In this document: piece by piece, positions 3-29,293 of the stretch
Position numbering within the stretch: position 1 is the first letter of the stretch
Layout of the letters: each line of letters starts with the position of its first letter
Assembly (NCBI RefSeq): GCF_000425365.1
Contig: NZ_AUDH01000022.1
Coordinates: 1 to 52,564 of the forward strand
DNA length: 52,564 nucleotides
From: Rubritepida flocculans DSM 14296
Lineage (GTDB): Bacteria > Pseudomonadota > Alphaproteobacteria > Acetobacterales > Acetobacteraceae
Reading direction: 5' to 3'
Translations under genes and position numbers: made by a program
Notes under the pieces: model-generated
The model's database searches: none
Seen by the model: the letters and a program-made list of their open reading frames with translations, nothing else
What the model was told of the DNA's origin: nothing

Positions 3-295
3 ACCACCCTCGTCCAGTGCGCCTGGGCCGCCACCCGCAAGAAGGACAGCTATCTCCGCGCCCAGTTCCACCATCTGCGACAGCGCCGCGGACCGAAAAA
101 AGCCATCTGCGCCGTCGCCGCCTCCATCCTCACCGCCGTCTGGCACATGCTCCAAAACGGAACCTTCTGGCACGATCTCGGACCAAATCACTTCCACCAA
201 CGCTCGCCAGAACAGCAGGCACGTCACCTCGCCGCCCAAATCATAAAGCTCGGCTTCGCATGCTCCTTCGAACCACAAGCCGAGGGAGTTTCTGT

Positions 296-299
<4 letters not shown>
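3..299 (+). CDS. IS110-family transposase, C-terminal part (5' end outside window)
   Basis: Reading from base 3 gives an open frame of 98 codons ending at TAG 297-299 with no start, so it is the 3' end of a gene that begins left of the window. The residues match the C-terminal (Transposase_20) end of IS110-family recombinases: a Leu-Val-Gln-x-Ala-Trp-x-Ala segment, then an Arg/Lys-rich stretch (QRRGPKKA), a hydrophobic helix, and a TFWHDLG-type segment. The N-terminal RuvC-like DEDD domain is not in view. It is convergent with acs, and the palindrome CTAG at 296-299 gives the stop codon of both genes. The closing bases AGTTTCTGTCTAG recur at the ends of two intergenic repeats at 17756 and 28421. 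Whether the element is complete cannot be judged from here. Confidence 0.8.
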
Positions 300-17474: not shown

Positions 17475-17756
17475 TCATGCCAGCGGCCGCTGATTTCGAA
17501 TCCTGAGGAGGCGGCGCGGCCGCTGGTATGGCCCTGTTTAGGCGCGCAGCCGCCACGCCTGGTCCCATCGAAGCAAAGCTTCGATGGGTGCCTGCCAACC
17601 CTGCGCGCGATACGGGCAGCATGCCCTGCCGACCGTATCAGTTACCCACCGGCGGTCCCCACCCGCCGTGGATGAAACTGTGGCACTATGGTTTGGGTGG
17701 TGGCGAGGTCGGCATGCCGATGGTGCGCCAGAGCCCGCGTGTCAGTTTCTGTCTAG
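17475..17756 (+). repeat. Structured intergenic repeat, copy 1 (about 282 bp)
   Basis: This copy matches 28177-28421 over its whole length. Parts in order: a 55-bp unit (17476-17530) bounded by inverted repeats close to CATACCAGCGGCCGC and GCGGCCGCTGGTATG; a spacer with GCGCGCAGCCGCCAC; an extra 25-nt hairpin (17564-17588, 11-bp perfect stem, AAA loop) absent from copy 2; a decayed palindrome (17609-17639); then about 117 bp nearly identical to copy 2 with a 12-bp palindrome TCGGCATGCCGA. It ends AGTTTCTGTCTAG, the same 13 bp that end the IS110 transposase at 299. The terminal CTAG gives the stop codon of the minus-strand gene at 17753. No coding potential is supported. Confidence 0.85.
17564..17588. 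repeat. Perfect 11-bp hairpin inserted in repeat copy 1
   Basis: CCCATCGAAGC (17564-17574), loop AAA, GCTTCGATGGG (17578-17588). The corresponding place in copy 2 lacks it, so it was gained here or lost there. There is no T-run on either side, so it is unlikely to be an intrinsic terminator. Confidence 0.8.
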
Positions 17757-19540
17757 GTGAAGCCGAACATTTCGGCGGTCAGCGACGCCTTCTGCCAGCC
17801 CAGCAGCGTCAGCGTGCCGCCGTATCCTGTGTCGATCACGAGGCCGTTCCAGTCATCGGTGCTGCGCGCCAGCACATCCGCGAAACTGTCGAGCCGCGGG
17901 CCGAAGCGGCTGAACTCGATGACGTCGCCCGCCTCGAAGTCCTCGATGATGTCATGGCCGTGGGTGCGGGTGAACACGAAGCGGTCCCGCCCGTCGCCGC
18001 CGGCGTAGTGCTGGTTGCCCGCCCCGTCCAGGAAGCGGTCGTCGCCCATGCTGCCGATGAAGCGTTCGAAGCCGGTGAGGCTGTTCTGCTGGCTGCCGCC
18101 GGCGAGGGAGAGGCGCCCGCGCGCCACATCCACCACCGCGCCCCAGCCCATGGCCTGCGAGCCGAAGCCGCTGAGATCGAGCGTGTCGAAGCCCGCGCCG
18201 CCGTCGAATGCGTTGCCGCGGAAGACGATGCGCGCGACATCCCCCACCGCCTGGATGGCGAGGGAGAAGGTGTCGTTGCCCTCGCCGAGGATGACGCTGT
18301 TGTTCTCGAAGCGGATGACGGCCGTGCCGTCGCCGCCGCGCGCGCCGTCCTCGCCCGCCGCGGCGCCGAAGACGAGGGTGGCGTCCGCGCCGATCAGGCT
18401 GCTCTGGTCGGCCACGCCGGCCCCGCCCCGGCCGCCCTCGCCGCCCTGGCCGCCCACGGCGCGGAGAAACACGACGATGCTGTCATCGCCCGCGCCGGTG
18501 GCGATGCGGTTGTCCTGGAGGAGGGCCGCGGCCTTGCCGCCCGCGCCGCCGGCCCCGCCGGGCGCGGAATCCGCGAAGTCGAGGCGGGTCGTGGAGCCGC
18601 CGCCGCCCGGGGCGTTGGTCACGAGCTGGCTGCCCGAGACGGCGGCGCCGCCCTGTCCGCCCTGTCCGCCCCGCCCGCCATAACCGCCATAGGCCTCGAT
18701 GTGCAGAAGCAGCGCCTGGTTCAGCCCCTGCTGGTCGGAGAGGTCGAGCCCGCGGATGACGCCCTGGGCGTTGCCGCCCCGCCCGCCCTCGCCGCCGGCC
18801 GCGCCCGCGCCCGCGCTGCCGCCCCATCCGCCATCCAGCCCGGTGCCGCCCGCGCCGCCATCCCCGCCCTGGGCCAGGGCGTAGAGGAGGGTCATGCCCG
18901 TGTTGCGGAGTGTGAGGTTCTCGATGGCGGCGAGGCCGAGTGCGCCATGGCCGCCGCGCCCGGCCGCGCCCGCATCGCCCGCGGCATTTCCCTGCGTGGT
19001 CCAGGTGGAGCGCGAGAGCGCGCCGGAGACGGGGTCCAGGAACTCGTCCATGCGCAGGACATCGCCGCCCGCGCCGCCGCCCTGCCCGCCGCTGCCGCCC
19101 TGCCCGCCCTGGCCGCCGGTCGCCTGGGCCGAGACCCTGACGAAGCCCACCTCCGCGAGCGTCGCATCGCGCAGCGCGGCCGTGGCGCGGCCGCCGACGC
19201 CGCCCGCCCCGCCGAGGCCGCCATCGCCTCCGGCGAGGTAGCTGGTCAGGCGGCCGCCGGGCAGGAAAGCATCGGTGTATTGTTGAGACGTGCCGGCCCC
19301 GCCGCCGCCCCCGGCCCCGCCACCACCGCCGAGAGCCGTGAGGCCCCAGACGGCGAAGCCGCCGCCGTCGCCCTCCAGCACCTGGCCGCTGCGTTCGGCC
19401 ATGGCCGCGCCGCCGGGGCGCCCGACGCCCGCGGGCACGCCATCCCGGCTCGGAACGCTGAGCTGCCGGTCCAGGCCCGTGCGGCCCGTGGCGCCCTGGG
19501 CGCCGAAGGCGCTGGCGTCATCCTCGAAGGACAGGCTCAT
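17753..19540 (-). CDS. Glycine-rich type I secretion substrate with hemolysin-type calcium-binding C-terminus
   Basis: A 595-residue acidic protein without an N-terminal signal peptide. Residues about 25-400 are dominated by Gly-Gly-x-Gly-Gly repeats (GGAGGGGGAG, GGQGGQGGSGGQGG, GGRGGQGGQGG) broken by short hydrophobic strands, reminiscent of PE-PGRS-like or antifreeze-like polyglycine bundles. The C-terminal 200 residues carry RTX-like nonapeptides (GAGDDSI, GEGNDTF, GGAGFDTLDLSGF, GGDGRDRFVF), then FEAGDVIEFSRF and LTLLGWQKASLTAEMFGF, the usual end of serralysin/hemolysin-type type I secreted proteins. The start at 19540 has only a weak G-rich ribosome-binding site, so the N-terminus is uncertain. 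No secretion ABC transporter is in the window. The TAG stop is the boundary of the repeat element. Confidence 0.75.
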   Translation of the reverse strand: MSLSFEDDASAFGAQGATGRTGLDRQLSVPSRDGVPAGVGRPGGAAMAERSGQVLEGDGGGFAVWGLTALGGGGGAGGGGGAGTSQQYTDAFLPGGRLTSYLAGGDGGLGGAGGVGGRATAALRDATLAEVGFVRVSAQATGGQGGQGGSGGQGGGAGGDVLRMDEFLDPVSGALSRSTWTTQGNAAGDAGAAGRGGHGALGLAAIENLTLRNTGMTLLYALAQGGDGGAGGTGLDGGWGGSAGAGAAGGEGGRGGNAQGVIRGLDLSDQQGLNQALLLHIEAYGGYGGRGGQGGQGGAAVSGSQLVTNAPGGGGSTTRLDFADSAPGGAGGAGGKAAALLQDNRIATGAGDDSIVVFLRAVGGQGGEGGRGGAGVADQSSLIGADATLVFGAAAGEDGARGGDGTAVIRFENNSVILGEGNDTFSLAIQAVGDVARIVFRGNAFDGGAGFDTLDLSGFGSQAMGWGAVVDVARGRLSLAGGSQQNSLTGFERFIGSMGDDRFLDGAGNQHYAGGDGRDRFVFTRTHGHDIIEDFEAGDVIEFSRFGPRLDSFADVLARSTDDWNGLVIDTGYGGTLTLLGWQKASLTAEMFGFT

Positions 19541-19756
19541 GCGCGCCCCCGGCATGTCGCGGTCGTGTCGGGAACGACACTGATGCCATGCGATCCTTGG
19601 CGCAAGCGAAGATGTGCGGCGGAATGAGCCGGGCGGCCTGACATGCCGCCCGGTCTCGCGCGCCGGCACCCGGCGAGATGGCGGACCCCGCCCCGGTAAC
19701 CGGCGGGAAACCCGTCGCGCCATAGCAAGGGCTTGCCAAAAAGGGAGCCCGCCCCC

Positions 19757-28176: not shown

Positions 28177-28421
28177 TCATACCAGCGGCCGCTGATTTCG
28201 CCTCCTGAGAAGCCGGTGCGGCCGCTGGTATGCCCTTGTTTTCGCGCGCAGCCGCCACACCAACTCTGCGCGCGATACGGTCGGCATGTCATGCCGACCG
28301 TATCAGTTACCCACCGGCCGTGCCGACCCGCCGTGGATGAAACTGTGGCACTGTGGTTTGGCTGGTGGCGAGGTCGGCATGCCGATCGTGCGCCAGAGCC
28401 CCCGTGTCAGTTTCTGTCTAG
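28177..28421 (+). repeat. Structured intergenic repeat, copy 2 (about 245 bp)
   Basis: Second copy of the element at 17475-17756. The 55-bp unit (28178-28232) has perfect 15-bp inverted repeats CATACCAGCGGCCGC / GCGGCCGCTGGTATG. The central palindrome (28274-28304) is perfect. The last 117 bp differ from copy 1 at only a few positions and end AGTTTCTGTCTAG, with CTAG giving the stop of glxR. The 25-nt hairpin of copy 1 is missing. The two copies lie 10.7 kb apart in the same orientation, each just past the 3' end of a minus-strand gene. The 308-bp space between genes here is otherwise empty. Confidence 0.85.
28274..28304. repeat. Perfect 15-bp palindrome inside repeat copy 2
   Basis: GATACGGTCGGCATG (28274-28288), one central T, then its exact reverse complement (28290-28304). 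In copy 1 the same place (17609-17639) has several mismatches on the left arm while the right arm is kept. Confidence 0.85.
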
Positions 28422-29293
28422 CCGATCTTGTGGTTCGCCAGCCGCTCCAGCGCCTGGACGAGGGCCGAATGGTCCCAGCCCTCGCCGCCCATGGCCGCGC
28501 AGGCGGAGAAGAGCTGCTGGGCCGAGGCGGTGTTGGGCAGCGCCACCCCCAGCTCCTTCGCCGCCTGCAGGGCGAGGTTCAGGTCCTTCTGGTGCAGCCG
28601 GATGCGGAAGCCGGGGTCGAAGGTCCGGTTGATCATCCGCTCGGCGTGCACCTCGAGGATGCGGGAGTTGGCGAAGCCGCCCATCAGGGCCTGGCGCACC
28701 TTGGCGGGGTCCGCCCCCGCCTTGGAGGCGAAGACCAGCGCCTCGGCCACCGCCTCGATGTTCAGCGCGACGATGATCTGGTTCGCCACCTTCGTTGTCT
28801 GCCCCGCGCCATTGGGGCCGACCAGCGTGATGTTCTTCCCCATGGCCTGGAACAGCGGCAGGGCGCGGGCGAAGGCCGCCTCCGGCCCGCCGACCATGAT
28901 GGTGAGCGCGGCGTTCTTCGCCCCCACCTCGCCGCCCGAGACGGGCGCGTCCAGGTAGTCGCAGCCCAGCGCGTTGATGCGCGCGGCGAACTCCTTGGTG
29001 GCGGTGGGGCTGATCGAGGACATGTCGATCACGAGCTTGCCGGGCGCGAGCCCCTCGGCGACACCCTTGGGGCCGAACAGCGCGGCCTCCACATCGGGCG
29101 TGTCGGGCACCATCGTGATGACGACATCGGCCCGGCGCGCGGCCTCGGCCGTGTCGTGGACGATGGTGAAGGCGGCCCGCGCCTCGGGCTTCAGGCTGGC
29201 GCGCTCGGGCGCGATGATCGCGTGGCCGGCCTTGGCGAGGTTCTGCGCCATGGGCAGGCCCATGATGCCGAGGCCGATGAAGGCGATGTTCAT
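28418..29293 (-). CDS. glxR: 2-hydroxy-3-oxopropionate (tartronate semialdehyde) reductase
   Basis: A 291-residue NAD(P)-dependent reductase that turns tartronate semialdehyde into glycerate in the glyoxylate carboligase route. Marks: AFIGLGIMGLPMAQNL, DAPVSGGEVGAKNAALTIM, and the catalytic Lys168 in GAGQTTKVANQI. The C-terminal DHSALVQALERLANHKI is the usual GlxR/GarR end, so the protein is complete although its TAG is the boundary of repeat copy 2. hyi lies 35 nt upstream on the same strand, which makes the assignment firm. Glyoxylate carboligase (gcl) is not in the window. Confidence 0.92.
   Translation of the reverse strand: MNIAFIGLGIMGLPMAQNLAKAGHAIIAPERASLKPEARAAFTIVHDTAEAARRADVVITMVPDTPDVEAALFGPKGVAEGLAPGKLVIDMSSISPTATKEFAARINALGCDYLDAPVSGGEVGAKNAALTIMVGGPEAAFARALPLFQAMGKNITLVGPNGAGQTTKVANQIIVALNIEAVAEALVFASKAGADPAKVRQALMGGFANSRILEVHAERMINRTFDPGFRIRLHQKDLNLALQAAKELGVALPNTASAQQLFSACAAMGGEGWDHSALVQALERLANHKIG

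Follow-up and report, generated by a model that had tools for sequence, protein, structure and literature searches.

Apparent rebuilding of stop codons by an IS110-family element and its MITEs at palindromic repeats in Rubritepida flocculans

The genome of Rubritepida flocculans DSM 14296 contains an IS110-family element and short derivatives of it (miniature elements, MITEs) whose right ends coincide with the stop codons of neighboring genes, and this pattern is real, genome-wide and mechanistically readable. It is very probable, with some residual doubt, that a REP-like palindromic repeat sits at the TGA stop of a gene, that an IS110 element with a guide for the target GTATC-AG inserts at the outer end of this repeat, and that the insertion rebuilds the stop as TAG, with MITEs presumably moved to the same kind of site in trans.

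The window, that is, the whole stretch of 52,564 nucleotides analyzed here (contig NZ_AUDH01000022.1), carries AGTTTCTGTCTAG exactly at 287-299, 17744-17756 and 28409-28421, and a scan of the window allowing up to two mismatches gave no fourth match. Dinucleotide shuffles of the window yielded a mean of 0.06 motif matches, and 0 of 100 shuffles reached three. The earlier note had read the CTAG of each copy as the TAG stop of a minus-strand gene, and this reading stands, as the minus-strand open reading frames end at 296, 17753 and 28418.

At the first of these places lies the 3' part of an IS110-family element that is cut by the contig start (1-297, plus strand), recognized from genome copies and from the domains of relatives, with the right end ...AGTTTCTGTCT. 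The C-terminal reading frame of its transposase (3-299, plus strand) ends in EGVSV followed by the stop TAG at 297-299. The core AG of the right junction (298-299), a dinucleotide seen at both junctions, completes this transposase stop and contributes the T in the stop of acs (TAG at 296-298, minus strand; acetate-CoA ligase, ORF 296-2302), for which the congener orthologue has TGA. The second place begins with a far-side TGA (17475-17477, minus strand; TCA on the plus strand), recognized from the sequence and the empty-site comparison, that flanks a REP-like palindromic repeat of the 166-bp class with two hairpins (17478-17637, minus strand; 160 bp without the two TGA). It is followed by an IS110-derived MITE of 115 bp in which the left and right ends of the element are fused (17640-17754, plus strand), the core AG of the MITE right junction (17755-17756) and the stop TAG (17753-17755, minus strand) of gene 17753-19723, whose protein matched no Pfam family and gave weak NCBIfam hits in its C-terminal part only. 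The third has the same build, with a far-side TGA (28177-28179, minus strand; TCA on the plus strand), a palindromic repeat of the 129-bp class (28180-28302, minus strand; 123 bp without the two TGA), a 115-bp IS110-derived MITE (28305-28419, plus strand), the core AG of its right junction (28420-28421) and the stop TAG (28418-28420, minus strand) of the gene for 2-hydroxy-3-oxopropionate reductase (ORF 28418-29293; TIGR01505, score above the cut-off), again TGA in the congener orthologue. This 28-kb locus matches the congener G018 also past the far TGA, as judged by eye. What the earlier note called two intergenic repeats do share the element's end, but each is a composite of a palindromic repeat and then an IS110-derived MITE.

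Across the whole genome, the exact 13-base motif is present in 27 copies, compared with 0 for a reversed-pattern control. AGTTTCTGT occurs 29 times, followed by CTAG in 27 cases and by CTAT (contig 7) or CTAC (contig 27) in the other two. The sequence upstream of the motif falls into two classes, the 3' end of an IS110-family transposase or the 115-bp element; by our own reading of the 29 AGTTTCTGT copies, 12 are transposase-type and 17 MITE-type, with 28 distinct right ends overall and 16 distinct right flanks among the MITE-type. The codon-usage model behind the coding calls was trained on 28 long ORFs that show a strong GC3 bias. A strongly coding minus-strand gene lies to the right of 21 of the 28 distinct right ends, and CTA is exactly its stop in 20 of these 21, whereas in sampled DNA of this genome 960 background CTA positions included 53 beside strongly coding minus-strand genes and 19 exact stops. 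With all ends in the denominator, exact stops make up 8/12 of the transposase-type and 12/16 of the distinct MITE-type right ends. The sole coding miss (L017), with its stop 4 bases further on, has the left flank GTATG and not GTATC. The seven right ends lacking a strongly coding minus-strand frame are L003, L009, L013 (an array copy), L018, L024, L025 and L068; L009 has TAG at offset 0, but its coding score is weak. The genome-wide copies and the analysis of neighboring genes thus bear out the proposals that the three repeats are ends of one element family and that insertion falls exactly at stop codons beyond chance. The comparison of all motif copies with stops, which the earlier note had called for, did not place them mostly away from stops, and the shared 13 bp did not prove to be unrelated host sequence.

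Ten further copies of the 299-bp tail at the contig start, either 98-100% identical or truncated, are present in the genome, and with shorter pieces there are 12 matches in all; no complete element was readable in this genome because the copies end contigs. The 98-aa transposase fragment of the window matched no Pfam family in an in-frame scan. The full protein is unreadable in this genome, and its assignment to IS110 rests on relatives: the relative L140 is 68% identical to the fragment over 98 aa, contains DEDD_Tnp_IS110 (PF01548) and Transposase_20 (PF02371), and matches the IS621 transposase structure 8wt6 (3.2e-13). The core dinucleotide AG stands at both junctions with no target duplication past it, as in IS110 elements, and in 2/29 copies the right-side core is AT or AC instead. 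The copy with AC (L128, contig 27, 298-309) is a transposase copy that has lost the stop, and the transposase frame of the contig 27 copy is open for 256 codons. In the remaining tail copies, the majority of them truncated where a contig stops, it is open for about 86-112 codons.

The 115-bp element consists of the left end of the full element joined to its right end at a common AGTT and is therefore a MITE; it has the element's own ends, no transposase, and multiple independent sites (17 copies with 16 distinct right flanks). In three copies at contig ends (L035, L036 and L046) the MITE's left end continues into the start of the transposase, giving the full element, and an internally deleted copy (L028) joins a MITE-like left end to the transposase tail. 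The left end at L028/L002 (contig 1, ~404.6-404.8 kb) is 75% like the MITE, and another gene end changed from TGA to TAG is found there. Three tandem MITEs on contig 13 (L013-L015, 408-816), with a period of 140 bp and the left context repeated, are a tandem duplication that includes the target.

The non-coding left end of the element appears to carry target and donor guides, as the bridge RNAs of IS110 elements do. Fourteen left ends from relatives and this genome were compared in the segment that precedes a conserved AGT[TC]GGAC; L156 and L171 yielded no left end. This segment repeats the left flank of its own element, reading GGACT in L153, GTCTG in L163 and GTATC in this genome, and the guide TTGCG belongs to a Bradyrhizobium element that lies in the repeat CATTGCGAG^GAGCGAAG. 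Target guide and left flank, compared across the six bases that precede AG, agree at 60 of 78 positions in 13 elements, against a shuffle mean of 37.7 and a maximum of 54 in 10,000, a comparison from which shared ancestry is not fully removed. The set omits L144, whose flank is at a contig edge, and includes two tandem insertions that adjoin another right end; the misses are L147 (0/6) and L146 and L170 (4/6 each). The donor guide agrees with the element's own right end at 49/56 positions in 14 elements (shuffle mean 30.2, maximum 42), with ancestry again partly remaining. A candidate guide for the gene side, on the right, matches weakly (28/72 positions, shuffle mean 21.5, P 0.023), and the choice on the gene side may therefore rest mostly on the repeat. 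An RNAalifold consensus of the 14 left ends predicts two stem regions with 36 pairs, 17 of them with at least one double-sided change, and in this fold one stem has the target guide in an internal loop, while the other has the donor guide in columns that do not pair. A long non-coding end with target and donor matches, the right-side guide being weak, is thus what was found, and a scan of four loci against Rfam gave no family at the gathering cut-off.

At the left junction, 19 of 20 distinct left ends read GTATC and the remaining one GTATG, with AG following, and GTATC-A is the outer end of the REP-like palindromic repeat. Counted with the TGA on either side, this repeat is commonly 129 or 166 bp long, and the sample contained 16 copies of each length. 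Hairpin-arm matches with up to one mismatch number 209 in the genome versus 0 for the control, and one hairpin end has 66 exact copies here compared with 0-2 in each of 20 congeners; these are, like REPs, abundant extragenic palindromes at gene ends. Element-free repeats supplied 44 outer ends, 33 of them with a coding minus-strand neighbor and 28 exactly at its TGA stop, while 3421 background TCA positions included 1577 with a coding neighbor and 139 exact stops; a small second sample of repeat ends gave 7 ends, 5 with a coding neighbor and 5 exact stops. The suggestion that stops are targeted holds to this extent, but the stop alone is not what is read: the site is the terminal GTATC-AG of a palindromic repeat that sits on a TGA stop. 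Repeat sites read gene-TGA-repeat-TGA-downstream, and G018 reads gene-TGA-downstream at L055, L059, L111 and L116, which are clean empty sites; at L050, L106, L110 and L012 the downstream alignment to G018 is partial or absent.

The flanks of the repeat bear on how it may itself spread. Among 47 repeat pairs scored, some of them inner-arm artefacts, TCA stands on both sides in 34 and TTA on both sides in one, and the matching TCA/TCA flanks look like a 3-bp target duplication. By our own count, however, 80 exact matches to TNATACCAGCGGCCGC comprise 74 TCA, 5 TTA, 1 TAA and 0 TGA, so that the orientation of the repeat is fixed and a strand-specific enzyme would fit better than a 3-bp target duplication. 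The copy with TTA on both sides and not TCA (L231, contig 1, ~384.4 kb), which is not at the stop of a minus-strand gene, suggests a 3-bp duplication. In the two repeats of the window (17478-17637 and 28180-28302) and in L225-L254, the same hairpin always faces the stop. Spread by a resident RAYT was not upheld, as no Y1 transposase (PF01797) was found in this genome, although it was present in 5/14 control genomes.

Taken as a sequence of events, the proposed mechanism would run as follows. MITEs would derive from the full element by internal deletion between two AGTT tetranucleotides. The left non-coding end of the full element would give rise to a putative bridge RNA whose target guide reads GTATC-AG, and in this genome this would direct the recombinase to the outer repeat end (gene-TGA-TACGG...), the repeats lying exactly on TGA stops. 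The recombinase would join the element at the AG core, which is CT on the gene strand, and would cut the stop as T/GA (the slash marking the junction). On the gene strand, nnC-T/GATAC would become nnC-T/AG ACAGAAAC, with T from the gene and AG from the right end of the element, so that the gene would keep its final amino acid and the displaced GA would end up at the element's other end. The transposase frame, on the opposite strand, would close with GTC-T/AG, its T contributed by the element and its AG by the target core. As the stops of the gene and the transposase are completed at one junction, the CTAG palindrome terminates two convergent genes. Having no transposase and little of the guide RNA, the MITEs would presumably be mobilized in trans by full copies. 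Read directly from sequence are the element ends, the build of the MITEs, the change from TGA to TAG, the repeat at the left junction, and the matches of target and donor guides in relatives; the production of the RNA, its guidance of the recombinase and the movement of MITEs in trans are inferred. The earlier note had pointed to the CT in the motif as the recombination core: that CT is the right end of the element, while the shared core, AG on the transposase strand, does read CT on the host-gene strand.

Whether the meeting of element and stop reflects adaptation is a separate question, on which the relatives bear. Right ends were found in 26 of 37 related loci by a pattern that itself demands YT before A, and one was too short, leaving 25. 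Eight of these have a strongly coding minus-strand neighbor, and six are at exact stops, TAA or TAG (L139, L140, L149, L156, L159 and L171), with L142 and L170 not at a stop; the right ends of L160 (GGAG) and L166 (GTAG) would give no stop. Stop-rebuilding thus seems to be common in the subfamily and yet not fixed. Several relatives show other arrangements: L146 and L151 are tandem insertions in which the right end leads directly into another left end, the full element of L151 is preceded by a second, MITE-like copy, and L148, L151, L152 and L167 are inserted beside repeats of another REP-like kind, the GAGC(G) type (GAGCGAAGCGACGAAGCAATCC or similar). The right end of L154, ...TTTTCAG, would rebuild TGA on the other strand and not TAG or TAA.

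We lean, without great assurance, to the view that the coincidence with stops is wholly inherited, the element reading the repeat only and its right end rebuilding the stop by accident, with mechanics identical to those proposed above minus any adaptation. The element-free repeats at exact TGA stops (28/33, and 5/5 in the small second sample) speak for this, as do relatives with non-stop guides (TTGCGAG, GTCTGAG) that also have right ends ...CCTAG or ...GTTAG. Against it can be held the exact stops of 6/8 relatives with other or no recognized repeats, which hint at more than the accident of one genome; listed beside these are L160 and L166, in which the right end makes no stop and the property is not fixed. 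It can be speculated, more tentatively, that the subfamily has settled on stops as safe sites, with guides that would spell CTGA, CTAA or CTAG on the gene strand and a right end that would rebuild TAA or TAG. If true, any gene with the right short motif after it would be a harmless target, with MITEs riding along.

Comparison with congeners bears on the remaining explanations of the proposed insertion at TGA. From 48 genes with exact stops (20 IS/MITE and 28 repeat) 22 were chosen and four congeners searched, giving 21 compared loci (10 IS/MITE, 11 repeat) on 20 stretches in all, taken from G018 except for one from G003. Among 60 sampled genomes, the window's own included, 4 had a match to the transposase fragment; among 20 congeners there was a weak match in G014 only, and none in G003 or G018. 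In all ten IS/MITE comparisons the protein has the same end point in the congener, which has TGA there versus TAG here, and the last residue is the same in eight and different in L007 and L016. Ten of the 11 repeat loci likewise end at the congener position (TGA in nine, TAG in L089), and in L012 (repeat, contig 9, 58.3 kb) the gene ends 13 residues earlier than in the congener. That elements or repeats carry a stop of their own and truncate genes in frame, an idea for which the early end at L012 and the congener's TAG at L089 could be cited, is very improbable given that protein ends agree at 10/10 IS/MITE and 10/11 repeat loci.

CTAG targeting is known from IS630-like elements, and an element that targets a pre-existing CTAG would meet stops through sequence composition, since GC-rich genes contain little CTAG except at TAG stops, where it is enriched. 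The background of 19 exact stops in 53 CTA positions beside strongly coding minus-strand genes does show CTA to be enriched at stops, but this explanation is slightly less credible still: the site has TGA and not TAG in 10/10 compared IS/MITE orthologues, CTAC or CTAT follows 2/29 right ends, the left junction is GTATC or GTATG and not CTAG, and the relatives are IS110 by Pfam. CTAG-specific insertion was accordingly rejected. Because ten of ten orthologues had TGA, CTAG appears to have been made by the insertion and to have been absent beforehand, and the option that the element brings CTAG has to be corrected, with CT coming from the element and AG from the target. Spread of the shared 13 bp by recombination or gene conversion between repeats and not by transposition is just as implausible, since the flanks of 28 distinct right ends are unrelated as soon as GTATC and AG are passed and the congener has precise empty sites for repeats, even though the contig 13 array of three MITEs shows that copies do recombine.

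IS900-type IS110 elements insert at translation starts, and the present elements resemble them in a target that overlaps a translation signal, the start region there and the stop codon here. The insertion of IS110 elements in REPs (PMC1525189) and the bridge RNAs or seekRNAs of IS110 elements (PMC11208160, PMC11187229) are already known. With IS621 and the REP-targeting IS110 elements of these reports, the element described here shares a DEDD transposase, a non-coding left end with guides, a dinucleotide core and insertion in REPs (PMC11208160, PMC11187229, PMC1525189). It differs from IS621 and other REP-targeting IS110 elements, as far as those accounts go, in a core that is AG on the transposase strand and not CT, a target inside the stop codon, a rebuilt stop and abundant MITEs; the terms 'stop codon' and 'MITE' are absent from the main text of PMC11208160 and PMC11187229. 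The termini of GTAG REPs often supply the TAG stop of flanking ORFs (PMC3733652), and our repeats are like these GTAG-tagged elements, as portrayed there, in that the repeat terminus coincides with the stop of the flanking ORF. They are unlike them in that the repeat (TGATACGG...GGTATGA) is at TGA, no Y1 transposase accompanies it in the genome, and a second element then inserts within that stop. A literature search of titles and abstract openings, subscription journals aside, returned no IS110 insertion at a stop codon with rebuilding of the stop and no such IS110 MITE. Stop-rebuilding insertion, as read from these junctions, and MITEs of the bridge-RNA type are what is new relative to the known REP-targeting IS110 elements.

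The finding shows how a site-specific element, probably RNA-guided, can multiply in a gene-dense genome with the genes unbroken, as the stop is hit and the stop is restored. It links three layers, namely the stop codon, the palindromic repeat and the IS110 element, with both empty and filled sites at hand. The subfamily also provides naturally occurring combinations of guide, target, donor and core, the core being AG, in addition to MITEs of the bridge-RNA type, which is useful for testing the rules of bridge RNAs. If the stop-rebuilding end is an adaptation, it would be a natural model of scar-free insertion at gene ends.
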